In this document: positions 32,834-53,664 of the stretch, in pieces
Layout of the letters: every line of letters starts with the position of its first letter
Numbering within the stretch: the stretch's first letter is position 1
Notes under the pieces: model-generated
What the model was told of the DNA's origin: nothing
The model's database searches: none
The model's input: only the letters and a program-made list of their open reading frames with translations
Program-made: the position numbers and the translations under genes
Assembly: GCF_003427025.1 (NCBI RefSeq)
Contig: NZ_QVAI01000004.1
Span: forward strand, 434,001 to 498,000
Length of the DNA: 64,000 nt
Reading direction: 5' to 3'
From: Jiangella endophytica
GTDB taxonomy: Bacteria > Actinomycetota > Actinomycetes > Jiangellales > Jiangellaceae

Positions 32834-34508
32834 TGCCGACGACCCCGGCGTCGACCCGCACGACGGTCGAGTGCCGGGCGATCGTCTCCGGGCGGTGCGC
32901 CACCATGATCAGCGTCCGCCCGGCCCGCACCCGGTCGACGGCGGTCTCGATGCTCGCCGCGACGACGGGATCGAGGTCGGCCGTGGCCTCGTCGAGGATC
33001 AGCACCGCCGGGTCCACCAGCGCGGCCCGGACGATGCCGACCAGCTGCTGCTCCCCCGCCGACAGCGCCGCACCGTACGGCCCGACGACGGTGTCCAGCC
33101 CGGCCGGCAGCCCGGCCAGCCACGCCGTCAGCCCGAGCCGGTCGACGGCGTCGAGCAGCTCCGCACGCGTCGGTTCGTGCGGCACCAGCGCGAGGTTGTC
33201 GGCGAGCGTCCCACTGACCAGGTGCACCTGCTGCGGCACGAGGACGATGCGCCGCCGCACCTGCGCCTCGGTGGCCGTCGCGAGGTCGACGCCGCCGAAC
33301 TCGACCGTGCCCGCGTCCGGCCGGTACAGCCCGCTGGCCAGCTTGACCAGCGTGCTCTTGCCCGACCCGGTCGGCCCGGCGACGGCCACGTGCGCGCCGT
33401 GCGGGAACGTCACGTCCACGCCGGCCAGCACGTCGGTCCCGGCACGGTAGGCGTAGCGCACGCCGCGGACGGTGAGGTCACCGGCCTCCGGCAGCGCGGC
33501 GCCGGCCGCGGGCGAGCGGTCCGCCGTCCGCTCGAGCAGGTCGAGCAGCCGGGCCAGGCTGACGGCGGTGGCCTGCAGCTCGCCGAACACCTGCGACAGC
33601 CGCAGCACGCCCTCGAACAGGTTCGTCATCGCCAGCACGAACACGGCGACCGTCCCGATGGTGACCCGGCCCTCCCCTGCCAGCCAGGCGCCGGCCACCA
33701 GCAGGACCGCCACCGACAGCCCCTCCAGGAAGCCGATCAGCCGCAGCCGCAGCTCGACGTCGACGGTGCGATCCTCGTCGGCGCGCAGGTCCTCGCTCTG
33801 GGCGGCGAACAGGCGCCGGCGCTGCGGCATCCCACCGGTGAGGTGCAGCGTCTCGCGACCGGCCAGCGTCTCGGTGAACGTCGCCGCGATGCCCGCACGA
33901 CCGGCCGCGACCCGTCCGTAGGCGCCCGCCGCGTCGCGCCGGAACCAGCGGATCACCAGCCACGTCGCCGGCAGCGTCACGGCCAGCGTGATGAGCGTCA
34001 GCAGCGGCGAGTACGACAGCAGCACGGCCAGCGTCAGCAGCAGCGACAGTGACAGGTTGACGACGTCCGGCAGCTGCTGGCGGACGAAGTCGGTGACGGT
34101 CGCGACCTCGCCGGTGGTGCGCTGCAGCAGGTCGCCGACCCGGTGCGACTCGATGAACCGCAGCGGCGCCGTCGCGATCCGGCCGACGGCGGTGTCGCGC
34201 AGGTCGCGGACCACCCGCTCGCCGGTCCGGGTCAGCAGCACCTCGGAGGTGCGCAGCAGGAAGATCCGCGCGACGACGACCACGGCCAGCACGGCGACGG
34301 CCGTGAACAACCCGGACCGCGACCGCTGCACCAGCTCGTCGATCGCCCGCCCGATGATCGGCGCCATCGACACCAGCGCCGCGGCGCTGAACAGGCTGAC
34401 CGCCAGCGCGAGCAGTGCCTCGCGCCGGTACGGCCGGGCCACGGCGGCGAAGCGCCGATACACCCCGCGGGTGGACGGTGCCTCCTCGAGGACGGGCGCG
34501 TCAGCCAT
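32826..34508 (-). CDS. ABC half-transporter, permease-ATPase (IrtB-like)
   Basis: A 560-residue exporter-fold ABC protein. About six membrane helices cover residues 20-310, then a nucleotide-binding domain with Walker A (GPTGSGKST), the Q-loop VLVPQQVHL, a variant signature LSAGEQQL in place of LSGGQ, and Walker B (AVLILDEATADLD). Together with the upstream half-transporter it should form a heterodimer. Beside an iron box and a siderophore-interacting protein, it fits IrtAB/YbtPQ-type siderophore importers, which use the exporter fold for uptake. The ATG at 34506-34508 follows GGGGAG by 5 nt and overlaps the end of the preceding gene. Confidence 0.88.
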   Translation of the reverse strand: MADAPVLEEAPSTRGVYRRFAAVARPYRREALLALAVSLFSAAALVSMAPIIGRAIDELVQRSRSGLFTAVAVLAVVVVARIFLLRTSEVLLTRTGERVVRDLRDTAVGRIATAPLRFIESHRVGDLLQRTTGEVATVTDFVRQQLPDVVNLSLSLLLTLAVLLSYSPLLTLITLAVTLPATWLVIRWFRRDAAGAYGRVAAGRAGIAATFTETLAGRETLHLTGGMPQRRRLFAAQSEDLRADEDRTVDVELRLRLIGFLEGLSVAVLLVAGAWLAGEGRVTIGTVAVFVLAMTNLFEGVLRLSQVFGELQATAVSLARLLDLLERTADRSPAAGAALPEAGDLTVRGVRYAYRAGTDVLAGVDVTFPHGAHVAVAGPTGSGKSTLVKLASGLYRPDAGTVEFGGVDLATATEAQVRRRIVLVPQQVHLVSGTLADNLALVPHEPTRAELLDAVDRLGLTAWLAGLPAGLDTVVGPYGAALSAGEQQLVGIVRAALVDPAVLILDEATADLDPVVAASIETAVDRVRAGRTLIMVAHRPETIARHSTVVRVDAGVVGIS

Positions 34509-36243
34509 CGTTACTCCCCGCCGTGACCGGGACCCGCAGGTCGATGACCCGGTCGGCTCGCTCGCTGACCTGCGCCCGGTGCGACACGGCGACGATCGCG
34601 GTGTCCGGCAGCTCGGTGCGCAGGCGGTCCAGGATCGCCCGCTCGGTGCCGACGTCGACCGCCGAGGTGACGTCGTCGAGCAGCAGCACCCGCGGCCGGC
34701 CGAGCAGCGCCCGGGCCAGCGCCAGGCGCTGCACCTGCCCGCCGGACAGCGTCGTCCCGCGCTCGCCGACGGCCGTCTCGTACCCGGCGGGGAGCGCGCG
34801 GACGTACCCGTCGGCGCCGGCGACCCGGCAGGCCCACGCGACCTCGTCGTCGCGCGCCTCCCGCCCGAGCCGGACGTTGTCCGCGACGGTGCCGGAGAGC
34901 ACGAGCGGCCGCTGCGGCACGTAACCGATCCGGGCCCACCAGTCGGCGCGGTCCGCCTGCGCGACGTCGGCCCCGCCGAACCGGACGGTGCCCGCCGCGG
35001 GCTCGTCCAGCCGGGCCACCGCCCGCAGCAGCGACGACTTGCCGCTGCCGACCGGTCCCCGCACCACGACCAGCTCACCGGGCGACGCCGTCAGCCGCAG
35101 CGGCGCGGTCGGCTCACCGCCGCTGCCGGTGCGCGCGGAGAGCTCGTCCAGCACCAGCTCGCCCCGCTCCGGCAGGACGGCAGTGAGGGCCGGCCCGCTC
35201 GACGCCGGTCCAATCGGTGACGGCGAGTGTCGGTGCCCGCCCGTAGGGTGGGCCCCACCCGGGCCAGGGAGGGGCATGTCCAGCACCTCGGCGATCCTCG
35301 TCCCCGACACCTCGGCCTCGCGCCGGTTCGACACCAGCAGCACCAGGAAGCTCAGCGCGATGGTCAGCATCGTCATCCACGACGTGTAGGCGATCAGCCC
35401 GCCGATACTGAGCCCGCCGTCCAGCACCGCGAGCCCGCCGGCCGCCAGCCCGGCGGCGATCGCCAGCCGCGGCACCGACGGCGGCACCGACGCCCACCAG
35501 GCGGCCACCCGGGCGACGGCCAGCGTGTGGACCGTGACCTCGCCGCTGGCGTCGGCGTGCCGCCGCACCAGCCGGCCGGTGCCGCCCAGCCCTCGCACGG
35601 CCCCGGCGGCGGACAGCAGCTCCTCGACGGCGCCGGCTCGGCGGGCATGCGCCCCGGCCAGCCGCTCGGCCGCGGCGGCGAAGCGGGGCGGGAAGATCAG
35701 CTGTGTGACGACGACCAGCGGCGCCATGATCGCCGTCACGACCAGCAGCCGCGGATGCAGGGTCGCGACCGCCGGCACGACCACGACGATCGTGCTCAGC
35801 GCCAGCGTCCAGTAGGTGAGCTTGTCGACCCAGTCGGCGACGGCCAGCACGTCACGCTCGGCCCGCGAGGCGAGGTCGCCTCGGTCGATCCGGGCGGTCA
35901 CGGCGCCGTCGGCGGCGCCGGCCCGGGCCAGCAGCCGCTCGCGCAGGTCCAGCGCGGTCGCGTTCGCGGCGTGCCGGGTCAGCCGCTCCCCCGTCGCACC
36001 ACCGGCCAGCACGATCAGCGCCAGCCCGACGACGGCCAGCGCCCATCCGGCGGTCCGGCCGGGCGCGCCGGCCTCCAGGCCGTCGTCGACGGCGCGCTGC
36101 ACCAGGGCGGGCGTGGCCAGGTAGCCGAGCTGGGCGGCGAGCCCGCAGAGCAGGCCGGTGACGATCACGCGCCGGCGGCGGCGGAACAGCTCCCGCAGCA
36201 GCCGGCGCCCAGGGGCGCGGGTCGGGTCCGCCATCGCGGGCAT
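34501..36243 (-). CDS. ABC half-transporter, permease-ATPase (IrtA-core-like)
   Basis: A 580-residue exporter-fold ABC protein, first gene of the pair. Membrane domain about 20-310; ATPase domain with Walker A (GPVGSGKSS), Q-loop YVPQRPLV, full signature TLSGGQVQRLALARALL, and Walker B (VLLLDDVTSAVD), where Asp replaces the usual catalytic Glu. The partner has Glu, so ATP hydrolysis may be asymmetric. A Pro/Gly/His-rich linker (about 322-345) is encoded by the palindromic repeat at 35228. Mycobacterial IrtA carries a fused siderophore-interacting domain; here that function is the separate gene at 37429. ATG at 36241-36243, with a second ATG three codons in. Confidence 0.88.
   Translation of the reverse strand: MPAMADPTRAPGRRLLRELFRRRRRVIVTGLLCGLAAQLGYLATPALVQRAVDDGLEAGAPGRTAGWALAVVGLALIVLAGGATGERLTRHAANATALDLRERLLARAGAADGAVTARIDRGDLASRAERDVLAVADWVDKLTYWTLALSTIVVVVPAVATLHPRLLVVTAIMAPLVVVTQLIFPPRFAAAAERLAGAHARRAGAVEELLSAAGAVRGLGGTGRLVRRHADASGEVTVHTLAVARVAAWWASVPPSVPRLAIAAGLAAGGLAVLDGGLSIGGLIAYTSWMTMLTIALSFLVLLVSNRREAEVSGTRIAEVLDMPLPGPGGAHPTGGHRHSPSPIGPASSGPALTAVLPERGELVLDELSARTGSGGEPTAPLRLTASPGELVVVRGPVGSGKSSLLRAVARLDEPAAGTVRFGGADVAQADRADWWARIGYVPQRPLVLSGTVADNVRLGREARDDEVAWACRVAGADGYVRALPAGYETAVGERGTTLSGGQVQRLALARALLGRPRVLLLDDVTSAVDVGTERAILDRLRTELPDTAIVAVSHRAQVSERADRVIDLRVPVTAGSNDG
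35228..35260 (+). repeat. Palindromic repeat copy A with PafBC/RecA-NDp promoter consensus
   Basis: The first 25 nt (35228-35252) are identical to 52444-52468. They read TGTCGGTG, then eight bases, then TAGGGT, which fits the RecA-independent DNA-damage promoter consensus TTGTCRGTG-N8-TANNNT. GGGTGGG and CCCACCC follow as a small hairpin. It lies in antisense inside the ABC half-transporter gene, in the linker-coding part. Confidence 0.7.
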
Positions 36244-49102: not shown

Positions 49103-49276
49103 CGACCGCCGCCACTCCCCGGTCAGAGTGTCCGTGTCGGGCACGTCGAACGCGCCGACGTGCTCGCCCAGCGACACCCAGTCGTCCTCGGCCGCGACCC
49201 ACTGCAGCGTGACCTGCTCGCCGTCGGTGCTGAGCGTGGCGACCAGGGGCGGGCCGAACGGGTGGGCGGGGAGCAC
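49091..49276 (-). CDS. Small orphan ORF, possible gene remnant
   Basis: A 61-residue reading frame with protein-like composition (VTLQWVAAEDDWVSLGEHVG) and a GTG start at 49274-49276 without a good ribosome-binding site. The frame stays open about 20 codons further upstream, with no start codon there, so it could be the 3' remnant of a longer decayed gene. It overlaps the 3' end of the convergent deacylase gene by 12 nt. I recognise no family. Confidence 0.35.
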   Translation of the reverse strand: MLPAHPFGPPLVATLSTDGEQVTLQWVAAEDDWVSLGEHVGAFDVPDTDTLTGEWRRSLRR

Positions 49277-49768
49277 GCCCGACAGCCAAGCGCACGACCG
49301 TGAACCCGCGGTGAACGCCGAGCAGTCAGCCGGGGGTCAGTTCGCCGATCCGCCGCACGATCGCTGCCGTCGACGCGCGCCATGGTGATCACGAGACGGC
49401 TCACGACGTGCCTTCTGACGACACCCACTGCTCGTGAACACGGGTTCACACACCACATCATGAGGCGTTCTCCCGCTCCACCAGGCATGCATGCCTCGTG
49501 GAGTGGGAGAACGCCTGGTGATGTGCGCGATCGTTGATGATCATCGCCGGGTGGCGTCCCCTGGAGTGGTGGATTTCGCGGTCGCCGGGCGTCGCCGTGT
49601 CGACAGTGGCGTTGTGCGGATCGGGGCGATGGCGCACGTGGGTTGGTCGCGGTCACCGGAACTCTGGGCGACTGGCGGCGTGGATCACGGTCGCCGGGTG
49701 GACCGCGACCACGCCTGCGATGCCCGAGGCGTGCCCAGACCCGCCCCGTCCCCCTGATAGCTGCCCGT
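49277..49768. other. Gene-poor intergenic stretch
   Basis: About 490 nt without a convincing gene; the short open frames here have Arg/Val-rich low-complexity products. The stretch holds the large imperfect hairpin at 49456-49523 and a GATGATCATC palindrome near 49536. The 14-mer TGATCACGAGACGG at about 49385 is also found at about 2399. Confidence 0.5.
49456..49523. repeat. Large 26-bp imperfect inverted repeat with inner palindrome
   Basis: Arms 49456-49481 and 49498-49523 pair with three mismatches in 26. The 16-nt loop contains AGGCATGCATGCCT, itself a palindrome, so the whole 68 nt can fold into one long hairpin. It is not next to a gene end. It could be a decayed small mobile repeat or a structured RNA. 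Confidence 0.55.
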
Positions 49769-49824
49769 TCATGATCATCAACCTTCTGTGCTGCCATCAC
49801 GACCGAGAAGGTTGATGATCATGA
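49769..49824. terminator. Perfect 19-bp inverted repeat, probable terminator
   Basis: TCATGATCATCAACCTTCT (49769-49787) pairs exactly with 49806-49824 around an 18-nt loop. The right arm includes the stop codon of the Pro-rich protein gene. Same TGATCAT family as the hairpins at 3391 and 12627. Confidence 0.75.
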
Positions 49825-50340
49825 GCCAGGCGCGGCCCTGTTGTCCTCGATGACCGGCCCGCCCTCCTGCACTCTGATCGCCACGCGAGCGCCGGAGCGC
49901 AGCCGGATGGTGGGGGGCAGCGCCGCCGCCACCTCCGGCTCGTCCACGCCGACCTCGACCGCTGCGGCCTCGTGGTCGGCGTAGGTGAAGTACACGAGCG
50001 CCGGGTCGGTCGCCCACGCGGACCGCTCGGCGAAGATCCGCTCCGCCAGCTCGTCCAGCTCGGCCGCGGTCGGCGGCCGCCCGGGGAGCGGCGCCGGCTC
50101 GACCGGGGCGGACTGGACGGGCTCGGGCTCGGCCGGGGCCGGCTCGACCGGGGCCGGCTCGACCGGGGCCGGCTCGACCGGGGCCGGCCGGACGGGCGCC
50201 TGCAGCGGCTCGGCGGCGACCAGCACCAGGCCGGCCACCACCAGCCCACCCGCGGCGATCGCCGTGACGACGTTCCGGTGGCCGGAGTCCACACACCGGA
50301 TCATCCTCCGGCCGGGCGCGCGGGCACAGTCCTCGCTCAT
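49819..50340 (-). CDS. Membrane-anchored protein with Pro/Ala/Glu repeat linker
   Basis: A 173-residue protein: a short cytoplasmic start (MSEDCARAPGRRM), one membrane helix (about 27-46), then a PAPVEPAPVE-type linker (about 52-85) encoded by 15-bp tandem repeats, and an outer domain of about 85 residues (ELDELAERIFAERSAW; IRLRSGARVAIRV). The ATG at 50338-50340 is preferred over longer frames that cross the divergent gene. The linker length may vary between strains. The outer domain matches nothing I know. Confidence 0.6.
   Translation of the reverse strand: MSEDCARAPGRRMIRCVDSGHRNVVTAIAAGGLVVAGLVLVAAEPLQAPVRPAPVEPAPVEPAPVEPAPAEPEPVQSAPVEPAPLPGRPPTAAELDELAERIFAERSAWATDPALVYFTYADHEAAAVEVGVDEPEVAAALPPTIRLRSGARVAIRVQEGGPVIEDNRAAPGS
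50096..50185. repeat. 15-bp tandem repeat in the Pro-rich linker
   Basis: GGCTCGACCGGGGCC occurs three times perfectly (50141-50185), with degenerate units on the left back to 50096, six units in all. Each unit encodes five residues (PAPVE type), so copy changes keep the frame. Confidence 0.75.
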
Positions 50341-51815: not shown

Positions 51816-52234
51816 GAGCCGCCGCCCTGCCGCGCCGCCAGCCGGGTGAAGTGCTGCTGGCAGGCCTGCGGCGAGTTGAACCCCATGGCGTCGCCGATGT
51901 CGGCCCAGGTCAGCCCGGCACCGCGGGCGACGAACAACAGGCCGCTCTCCAGCCCGTCGACCTCGGCACGCGCGGCGGCCAGCAGGGCGAGCGCGGCCCG
52001 CAGGTCGCCGGGCTCGAGGTCGGCGGCGCGCCAGAGCGCGTACTGAGCGAGGTCCACCGCCGACGGCGGGACCGGATCGGGCCGCCACGGCCGCGCCTCC
52101 AGCTCGCCGGCGCCGAGCGCGAGCAGCCGGTCGCGGGCCTCCTGCTCGCGGCGGGCCTCGGCGTGGCGTGCCTGGGTGTGCCGGGCCTGAGTGTGCCGGG
52201 CCTGGGTGTGATCGGGGTCCTGCTTGCGGGTCAT
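51812..52234 (-). CDS. Small HTH protein with HTQAR repeats
   Basis: A 140-residue protein. The N-terminus has a tandem repeat HTQAR-HTQAR-HTQAR-HAEAR (residues 9-28), then a helical middle and a C-terminal helix-turn-helix (GLTWADIGDAMGFNSPQACQ) of the kind seen in small actinobacterial regulators. ATG at 52232-52234. An extended dyad lies 20 nt upstream, between it and the divergent PEP-utilising gene, and is the likely binding site. The repeat is probably a flexible, length-variable tail. Confidence 0.7.
   Translation of the reverse strand: MTRKQDPDHTQARHTQARHTQARHAEARREQEARDRLLALGAGELEARPWRPDPVPPSAVDLAQYALWRAADLEPGDLRAALALLAAARAEVDGLESGLLFVARGAGLTWADIGDAMGFNSPQACQQHFTRLAARQGGGS
52151..52210. 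repeat. 15-bp tandem repeat encoding HTQAR
   Basis: Four 15-bp units code for three HTQAR copies plus one HAEAR copy near the N-terminus of the HTH protein. Unit length keeps the frame. Confidence 0.7.
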
Positions 52235-52293: not shown

Positions 52294-53664
52294 GTGCTGG
52301 TGCCGCTCAGCGAGGCGGAAGCGGACACCTGCGGCGGCAAGGCGAGTGCGCTCGGCGCCCTGCTGCGGGCCGGCCTGCCGGTCCCCGACGGCTTCGTCGT
52401 GCCGTTCGCGGGTCCCGCCGGCCCGGTCAGCGACGCGGCCGACTGTCGGTGCCCGCCCGTAGGGTGGGGTCCCACCCCATCCGGGCGGGATGTCACTCCG
52501 GCCCAACGCGGACCGACCCCGGCCGAGCACGGCCCCACCGCAGCCCAGCACCGCTCGACCCCGGCCCAACACGACCCCGCCCCTGCCCAGAACGGCCCCG
52601 CCCCTGCCCGGCAGAGCAGCGCCCCAGCCGGTCGGGCGTCACAGCTGCTCGACGAGCTGCGGCGCGGGCTGGCCCGGCTCGGCGACCCGCTGGTGGCGGT
52701 GCGGTCGTCGGCGTCGGACGAGGACACCGCGCAGGCGTCGGCGGCCGGTCAGCACGAGACCGTGCTCGCGGTACGTGGCGCCGCAGACGTGGCCGGCGCG
52801 GTCCTGGCCTGCTGGGAGTCGGCGGGCTCGGCGCGCGCCGTCGACTACCGCGACGGCGCCGCCGCCCCGGCGATGGCGGTCCTCGTGCAGCGGCTGGTGG
52901 ACGCCGATGTCTCGGGGGTGCTGTTCACCCCCGCGGCGCCGGACGGCGTCACCGCGATCGAGGCGTCGTGGGGGCTCGGGCCCAGCGTCGTCGGCGGCAC
53001 GGTGACACCCGACGCCTACACCGTCGCCGCCGACGGGTCGGTCGCGTGCGTCGTCGGGGACAAGCGGATCCGGCTGGACCGCGACGGCGCGCGGCTGGTC
53101 ACCCGAGGAGTCCCGCTCAGCGATCGGACTCGGCCGGTCCTGGACGACGACACCGCCCGGCGACTGGCGCGGCTCGGCCACCGGGTGGCCGCGCTGCGCG
53201 GCGGGCCGCAGGACGTCGAGTGGGCGATCGCCGGCGGACGCGACTGGCTGCTGCAGGCGCGCCCGGTCACCGCCGCTCCCCCACCACGCCCGGCCGCCGC
53301 ACCGGCACCACCGTCCGCCAGGGCGTCCGCGGCATCACCCGGCACGCTGACCGGCACACCCGGCAGCCACGGCACCGCGACCGGCCCGGCGAGGGTGGTC
53401 CGCGGTCCAGGCGACTTCGCCCGGATGCGCCCGGGTGACGTGCTGGTCTGCCGCTACACCGACCCGGCCTGGACGCCGCTGCTGCGCCTCGCCGCGGGCG
53501 TCGTCACCGAGATCGGCGGCGTGCTCTCCCACGCCGCGATCGTCGCCCGTGAGCGGGGCGTCCCCGCCGTCCTCGGCGTCGCCGAGGCCACCACCCGGCT
53601 CCGCGACGACACCACCGTCACCATCGACGGCGACGCCGGCACCGTCACGACCACCCGGGAGTGA
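52294..53664 (+). CDS. PEP-utilising (PPDK/PEP-synthase-like) enzyme, minimal two-domain form
   Basis: A 456-residue enzyme with an ATP-grasp domain and a swivelling phospho-His domain. N-terminal text GGKASALGALLRAGLPVPDGF and VRSSASDEDT are PPDK_N features; DVEWAI and LLQARPVT close that domain. The mobile domain has GGVLSHAAIVARERGVPAV with catalytic His413. A third (PEP/pyruvate or rifampin-binding) domain is absent. Residues 51-113 are an in-frame insertion: a palindromic repeat then seven heptad repeats, breaking the ATP-grasp region. The GTG at 52294 follows AAGGAG by 7 nt. It may phosphorylate a small molecule, as rifampin phosphotransferase does; substrate unknown. Confidence 0.82.
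   Translation: MLVPLSEAEADTCGGKASALGALLRAGLPVPDGFVVPFAGPAGPVSDAADCRCPPVGWGPTPSGRDVTPAQRGPTPAEHGPTAAQHRSTPAQHDPAPAQNGPAPARQSSAPAGRASQLLDELRRGLARLGDPLVAVRSSASDEDTAQASAAGQHETVLAVRGAADVAGAVLACWESAGSARAVDYRDGAAAPAMAVLVQRLVDADVSGVLFTPAAPDGVTAIEASWGLGPSVVGGTVTPDAYTVAADGSVACVVGDKRIRLDRDGARLVTRGVPLSDRTRPVLDDDTARRLARLGHRVAALRGGPQDVEWAIAGGRDWLLQARPVTAAPPPRPAAAPAPPSARASAASPGTLTGTPGSHGTATGPARVVRGPGDFARMRPGDVLVCRYTDPAWTPLLRLAAGVVTEIGGVLSHAAIVARERGVPAVLGVAEATTRLRDDTTVTIDGDAGTVTTTRE
52444..52635 (+). repeat. In-frame insertion: palindromic repeat copy B plus seven 21-bp repeats
   Basis: 52444-52468 is identical to 35228-35252 and fits the PafBC/RecA-NDp promoter consensus (TGTCGGTG, 8 nt, TAGGGT). Outer arms CCCGCCCG (52452-52459) and CGGGCGGG (52482-52489) enclose an inner stem GGGTGGG/CCCACCC. 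From about 52489 seven 21-bp units encode heptads of the form GPTPAEH. Total length 192 nt, 64 codons, so the reading frame is preserved. Confidence 0.72.

Follow-up and report, generated by a model that had tools for sequence, protein, structure and literature searches.

An open reading frame of Jiangella endophytica that codes for a PEP-utilising enzyme contains a GC-rich palindrome followed by a run of short tandem repeats, raising the question of what such a sequence is and how it came to lie within a gene. The locus belongs to a stretch of 64,000 nt (contig NZ_QVAI01000004.1, positions 434,001 to 498,000), hereafter the window. The initial annotation took the palindrome and the repeats together as a 192-nt, REP-type element inserted in frame, possibly carrying a damage-inducible promoter, and held the palindrome to be present at a second place. 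This second occurrence is real: TGTCGGTGCCCGCCCGTAGGGTGGG is found exactly at 52444 (copy B) and at 35228 (copy A) and, with up to three mismatches allowed, nowhere else in the window, with zero occurrences expected from 100 shuffles. The nested outer and inner hairpin arms are likewise as annotated (Table 1), and the palindrome of copy B, folded as DNA, reaches -17.0 kcal/mol (z -2.8). The in-frame array of 21-bp units is detected by TRF at 52498-52609 (5.3 copies, 74% match) and at 52577-52629 (2.5 copies), and it is read as heptads within the open frame, in which the PPDK_N match picks up again only at residue 123.

Table 1. Features of the two element copies in the window and of the genes that host them (positions are those of the window).
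Feature	Position	Strand	Basis
Copy B, 46-bp core (PafBC box, spacer, -10, interleaved palindrome)	52444..52489	+	25-bp exact match to copy A and family alignment
PafBC/RecA-NDp-type box TGTCGGTG	52444..52451	+	fits published consensus (PMC5656591)
Outer 5' arm CCCGCCC	52452..52458	+	sequence
-10-like TAGGGT, 8 nt 3' of the box	52460..52465	+	sequence
Inner 5' arm GGGTGGG, overlapping the -10	52462..52468	+	sequence
Inner 3' arm CCCACCC	52471..52477	+	sequence
Outer 3' arm GGGCGGG	52483..52489	+	sequence
21-bp minisatellite, locus-specific, about seven in-frame heptads	52498..52629	+	TRF
Copy B host gene: PEP-utilising enzyme with PPDK_N and PEP-utilizers domains; N-terminal linker holds the insert	52294..53664	+	
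Copy A: core as in copy B, 3' half different, heptads absent, antisense to the host gene	35228..35273	+	
Copy A host gene: ABC transporter with ABC_membrane and ABC_tran; inter-domain linker holds the element	34501..36243	-	

The hairpin of copy B is a member of a repeat family of the genus Jiangella rather than a peculiarity of a single gene. In this genome (7.85 Mb, 89 contigs), a search with GCCCGCCCNTANNNTG returned 52 matches, all of the same kind of palindrome, versus one match for the reversed pattern. Strict counts in the 12 Jiangella genomes are 0, 1, 3, 4, 11, 14, 19, 22, 51 (this genome), 60, 96, and 158, and decayed copies are missed in these figures because the counting patterns demand a conserved core. 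The top copy numbers belong to a clade of four genomes that are ~90-95% identical, and the other members of the same taxonomic family that were tested with the strict pattern have zero copies. When a looser box pattern was applied to the class (393 genomes from 137 genera), 13 to 165 matches were obtained in each of eight Jiangella genomes and at most nine in any genome outside Jiangella. Overall, 25 near-identical bases recur across ten Jiangella species at dozens of unlinked loci, as against control counts of 0-1, although copies from close relatives within the genus are not all independent. These dispersed exact copies already refute the notion of a fast-evolving, low-complexity coding linker whose palindrome is a by-product of GC-rich repeats; the high GC content and the repetitive, hypervariable flanks speak for such a linker, which we nevertheless find scarcely credible. 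The largely open-access literature searched yielded no account of this repeat family in Jiangella.

Over 125 aligned copies, conservation is confined to ~46 bp, with weak extensions to about -7 and +57. The elements follow the order TGTC[GA]G[TC]G, CCCGCCC, one free base, TA, GGGTGGG, 2-4 nt, CCC[TA]CCC, 3-5 nt, and GGG[CA]GGG, in which a box (TGTCRGYG), an 8-nt spacer, and a -10 (TAGGGT) are interleaved with C3NC3/G3NG3 arms. Every strong match of a profile search in which the TA of the -10 was not required has this TA, and the base that precedes it is variable. The RecA-independent damage promoters (RecA-NDp) have the consensus tTGTCRgtg-8 nt-TannnT (PMC5656591) and are activated by PafBC (PMC6789036), which is in turn activated by the binding of ssDNA (PMC11804915). 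The TGTCRGYG-8 nt-TAGGGT arrangement of the element matches this consensus, and the spacing is exact. Moreover, Jiangella encodes both pafB and pafC adjoining the Pup-ligase locus (PafB with WYL and WCX domains; PafC with HTH_PafC, E 6e-38), and in this genome box-spacer-(-10) sites outside any element precede recA, uvrC, a UvrD-type helicase gene, dnaE, and a nuclease gene, these names having been assigned by reading the translations. At several such sites the start codon lies 28-29 nt from the start of the box, and in other genera exact matches are located directly before start codons. The suspicion of a damage-inducible promoter was thus apt, in that the element carries a putative PafBC-dependent promoter as judged from its sequence and from the company of the regulator genes and of similar promoters before repair genes. 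The folds are less constant than the box. Specifically, the subfamilies differ in their 3' halves, not all of them have the long hairpin as their best fold, and the hairpin predicted for the 5' end of the RNA does not surpass shuffled sequences of equal composition in stability; a rule under which the long hairpin tolerates one mismatch at most seemingly holds in the main class and was abandoned because it fails in the second class described below.

A profile search run without the box requirement identified a minor class in three genomes (G004, G009, and G010), which has the same core and a different upstream part, the reversed-sequence control returning two matches only, both with E > 5. In this class, two 11-nt GTTCACGC repeats (GTTCACRC-like units at an interval of exactly 11 nt) take the place of the PafBC box, ~11 nt upstream of the -10, and CCGCCCGTAGGGT comes after them. 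The PHO box of S. coelicolor consists of two 11-nt direct repeats with a GTTCACC core (PMC4415409). The minor-class boxes have the form of a PHO box, with the heptamer GTTCACG instead of GTTCACC and a second unit that is degenerate in several copies, and are candidate PhoP sites. That two different activator boxes occur on a single -10/hairpin core is, among the arguments from sequence, the strongest for a promoter function of the core.

The location of the copies relative to genes is far from that of a conventional promoter. For 90 intergenic copies, genes were called on either side by our own simple codon-usage script. Of these copies, 43 lie between convergent genes, which account for 17% of the intervals and 26% of the length (p 8.7e-6 on the latter basis), while divergent-gene intervals are avoided and hold 8, compared with 30% by length (p 2.5e-6 by length); 64 of the 90 are directed toward the next gene's 3' end. 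Another 21 of the 125 copies are inside called genes, 12 in antisense and 9 in sense. This bears out the description of a small dispersed element that sits inside genes without breaking them, which applies to copies A and B and to about 20 of 125 copies overall. The genes just downstream of the copies are ordinary and are not repair genes, and the dispersed copies do not share the usual placement of PafBC promoters upstream of a damage-response gene. A function as promoter of the downstream gene was considered and rejected, given such ordinary and mostly wrongly oriented neighbours; since most copies aim at gene 3' ends and divergent regions are avoided, the element is generally not the promoter of the gene that follows it. 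The abundance between convergent genes and the GC-rich hairpin would instead suit bidirectional terminators or 3'-end RNA hairpins that spread behind genes and resemble promoters only secondarily. Such terminators, however, would have no need of a PafBC or PHO-like box at a fixed spacing, nor are they expected inside open frames in either orientation, where about a sixth of the copies lie, and we consider this explanation improbable.

The dispersal itself could reflect a non-autonomous mobile palindrome of the MITE or REP-like type, for which the promoter match would be ancestral baggage or a recognition sequence and the arrays and the 3'-end location would simply mark neutral sites. The subfamilies with distinct 3' halves, the presence or absence of copies at orthologous sites, the avoidance of divergent regions, and the copies within open frames are all compatible with it. 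Nonetheless, a RAYT-family (Y1) transposase was detected in none of the 12 Jiangella genomes, the controls being positive, and therefore the element is not REP in the RAYT sense of the initial annotation, its likeness to the REP/REPIN sequences associated with RAYT residing in small palindromes near gene ends. Outer terminal inverted repeats show no excess over permuted pairs, no target-site duplication was found at borders that are blurred by repeats, and the search for a mobility gene of the element was negative. Furthermore, the box, the 8-nt spacing, and the -10 have been kept, and a second box class on the same core is unexpected for baggage. Altogether, we regard a merely mobile palindrome as an unlikely explanation that still deserves serious weight.

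Individual candidates for a partner or a source were also discarded. DUF222 (13E12-type) HNH genes are not the source, as 0 of 8 DUF222 matches in this genome carry the element; the DUF222 genes of other Jiangella species have PafBC-type promoters devoid of the palindrome. In the low-copy Jiangella species (L394, L395, L398, L402), several genes, one of them a confirmed DUF222, immediately follow PafBC-type promoters whose spacers are G-rich. Clustering of the neighbour proteins, carried out in search of an autonomous partner gene beside the copies, returned common families and true orthologues only. An IS256/Mutator-type transposase gene of G010 (L312:2350-4070) is located between two direct copies of different subfamilies, at a place where G004 has a single copy, and was rejected as a partner because it looks like an independent insertion. 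Separately from this family, the window hosts further repeated sequences: a dispersed repeat of ~165 bp that contains an inverted repeat (49384-49549), 78-86% identical at many places in the genome, some of which are near copies of the element; a 537-bp stretch (49117-49653) that is 98% identical to contig C23:104138-104674 and whose first ~230 bp have counterparts, 84-93% identical, in several further Jiangella genomes; and 48 bp (49726-49773) that are 94% identical to a further dispersed repeat near copies in L008, L022, and L043.

The copies are associated with tandem repetition. As regards MINISATELLITES and duplication, tandem repeats make up 19.5% of the element-bearing intergenic DNA of this genome versus 3.4% of that without the element, and 11.6% versus 2.7% at the other Jiangella loci, their density near copies being 4-6 times that of other intergenic DNA. 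Both the sequence and the period of the repeat units change between loci, hence the minisatellites are not part of the element; the palindrome and the minisatellite are accordingly not one element, contrary to what had been proposed, since copy A has the palindrome without the heptads and other copies are accompanied by different repeats with other periods. At selected element loci, all 33 copy pairs less than 700 bp apart are on the same strand, with none on opposite strands, and their similarity extends into the flanks, as in the five head-to-tail 133-bp units with one element copy each at L295:3987-4565 (G010:C1 near 5.5-6.1 kb), near the contig start. Close copies are therefore tandem duplications. 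Copies have also been gained or lost between species: in G010 and G004, which are ~95% identical, the copy number is unequal at 5 of 8 orthologous loci picked as element-bearing in both genomes, and at three more syntenic loci (one in a glnD-like gene) the allele is longer where the element is present. These observations fit the element being a focus of tandem duplication, and the palindrome may well cause the duplications; the reverse order, in which minisatellites came first and the element was inserted into DNA that was already unstable, could also apply.

At the copy A site, G008 lacks the element and its linker is the shortest; a single copy is present in G000, G001, G004, G009, and G010 and two copies in G005, and every element-bearing allele contains ~20 to 290 bp of unrelated sequence in addition. 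The sole close orthologue of the copy B host gene is in G005 (protein ~75% identical) and at the same place has neither the hairpin nor the heptads. Alignment with this orthologue, which had been suggested for mapping the borders, thus documents the absence of both and leaves the exact border unobtained: the G005 linker contains an unrelated extra sequence with an inverted repeat of its own (GTCACCTGATCGTT...AACGATCAGGTGAC) and a broken frame (L169:1300-1510). For this reason there is no clean empty site for copy B, the proposed 192-nt border cannot be fixed, and the place appears to be an insertion hotspot. Tandem repeats of 15 bp are also present inside open frames near copy B, at 52152-52210 and 50089-50188 (HTQAR-type and PAPVE-type peptides).

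Taken together, copy B is probably a member of a Jiangella-specific family of ~46-60 bp dispersed cassettes, each combining a stress promoter with a hairpin and acting also as a hotspot of tandem duplication. Such a cassette would consist of an activator box (of PafBC type in the main class, PHO-like in the minor one) at a fixed spacing from a -10 set within the GC-rich interleaved palindrome. Because the -10 is embedded in the palindrome, a transcript starting ~7 nt after it would open with the C3NC3/G3NG3 hairpin. Once PafBC is active, RNA polymerase would start just past the -10, and the first ~20 bases of the RNA could pair. The cassette would accordingly be transcribed under DNA damage or, in the minor class, perhaps phosphate limitation, into a hairpin-led RNA that is presumably short or antisense; as most copies face gene ends, this RNA would usually be antisense or non-coding. 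The cassette would have spread to many sites, mostly behind genes or between convergent genes and at times into protein linkers, and after its arrival local tandem duplication would give rise to locus-specific minisatellites, such as the 21-bp heptads at copy B.

Among known systems, the closest likeness is with the Correia elements (CREE) of Neisseria, which, according to one account (PMC2649163), are short dispersed palindromes that can supply a promoter, influence their neighbours, and show signs of mobilisation; the same account describes terminal inverted repeats and binding by RNase III and IHF. The resemblance, that of a promoter-supplying dispersed palindrome, is treated as an analogy only, and membership is not claimed. 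Unlike CREE, the Jiangella element has an activator-box promoter inside the palindrome, an actinomycete host, and tandem-duplication arrays, and terminal repeats were not found. The Rickettsia palindromic elements (RPE) are dispersed palindromic repeats that occur in frame within protein genes. They share with the Jiangella element the in-frame palindromes in protein genes, whereas the Jiangella copies are mostly intergenic, their promoter box is the conserved part, and the organisms are unrelated. With PafBC (RecA-NDp) promoters the element has in common the consensus and the regulator genes; yet known PafBC promoters drive single repair genes, while the Jiangella copies are repeated up to ~160 times, are palindromic, and are for the most part directed toward the ends of genes.

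Should the copies be active, DNA damage would elicit transcription at dozens of dispersed sites in one genome, mostly antisense to gene ends, amounting to a damage regulon that is scattered and lacks repair genes. The exchange of activator boxes on one core would represent a natural experiment on the rewiring of regulons by repeats, and the repeated tandem duplications offer a system in which to ask whether promoter hairpins create minisatellites. On the broadest and rather doubtful view, Jiangella would have amplified interchangeable stress cassettes (PafBC for DNA damage, PHO for phosphate starvation, on one shared core) to up to ~160 sites that face the 3' ends of genes, each stress would produce antisense or hairpin-led RNAs genome-wide, and the cassettes would be stress-linked duplication hotspots from which minisatellites arise both in spacers and in the linkers of proteins.
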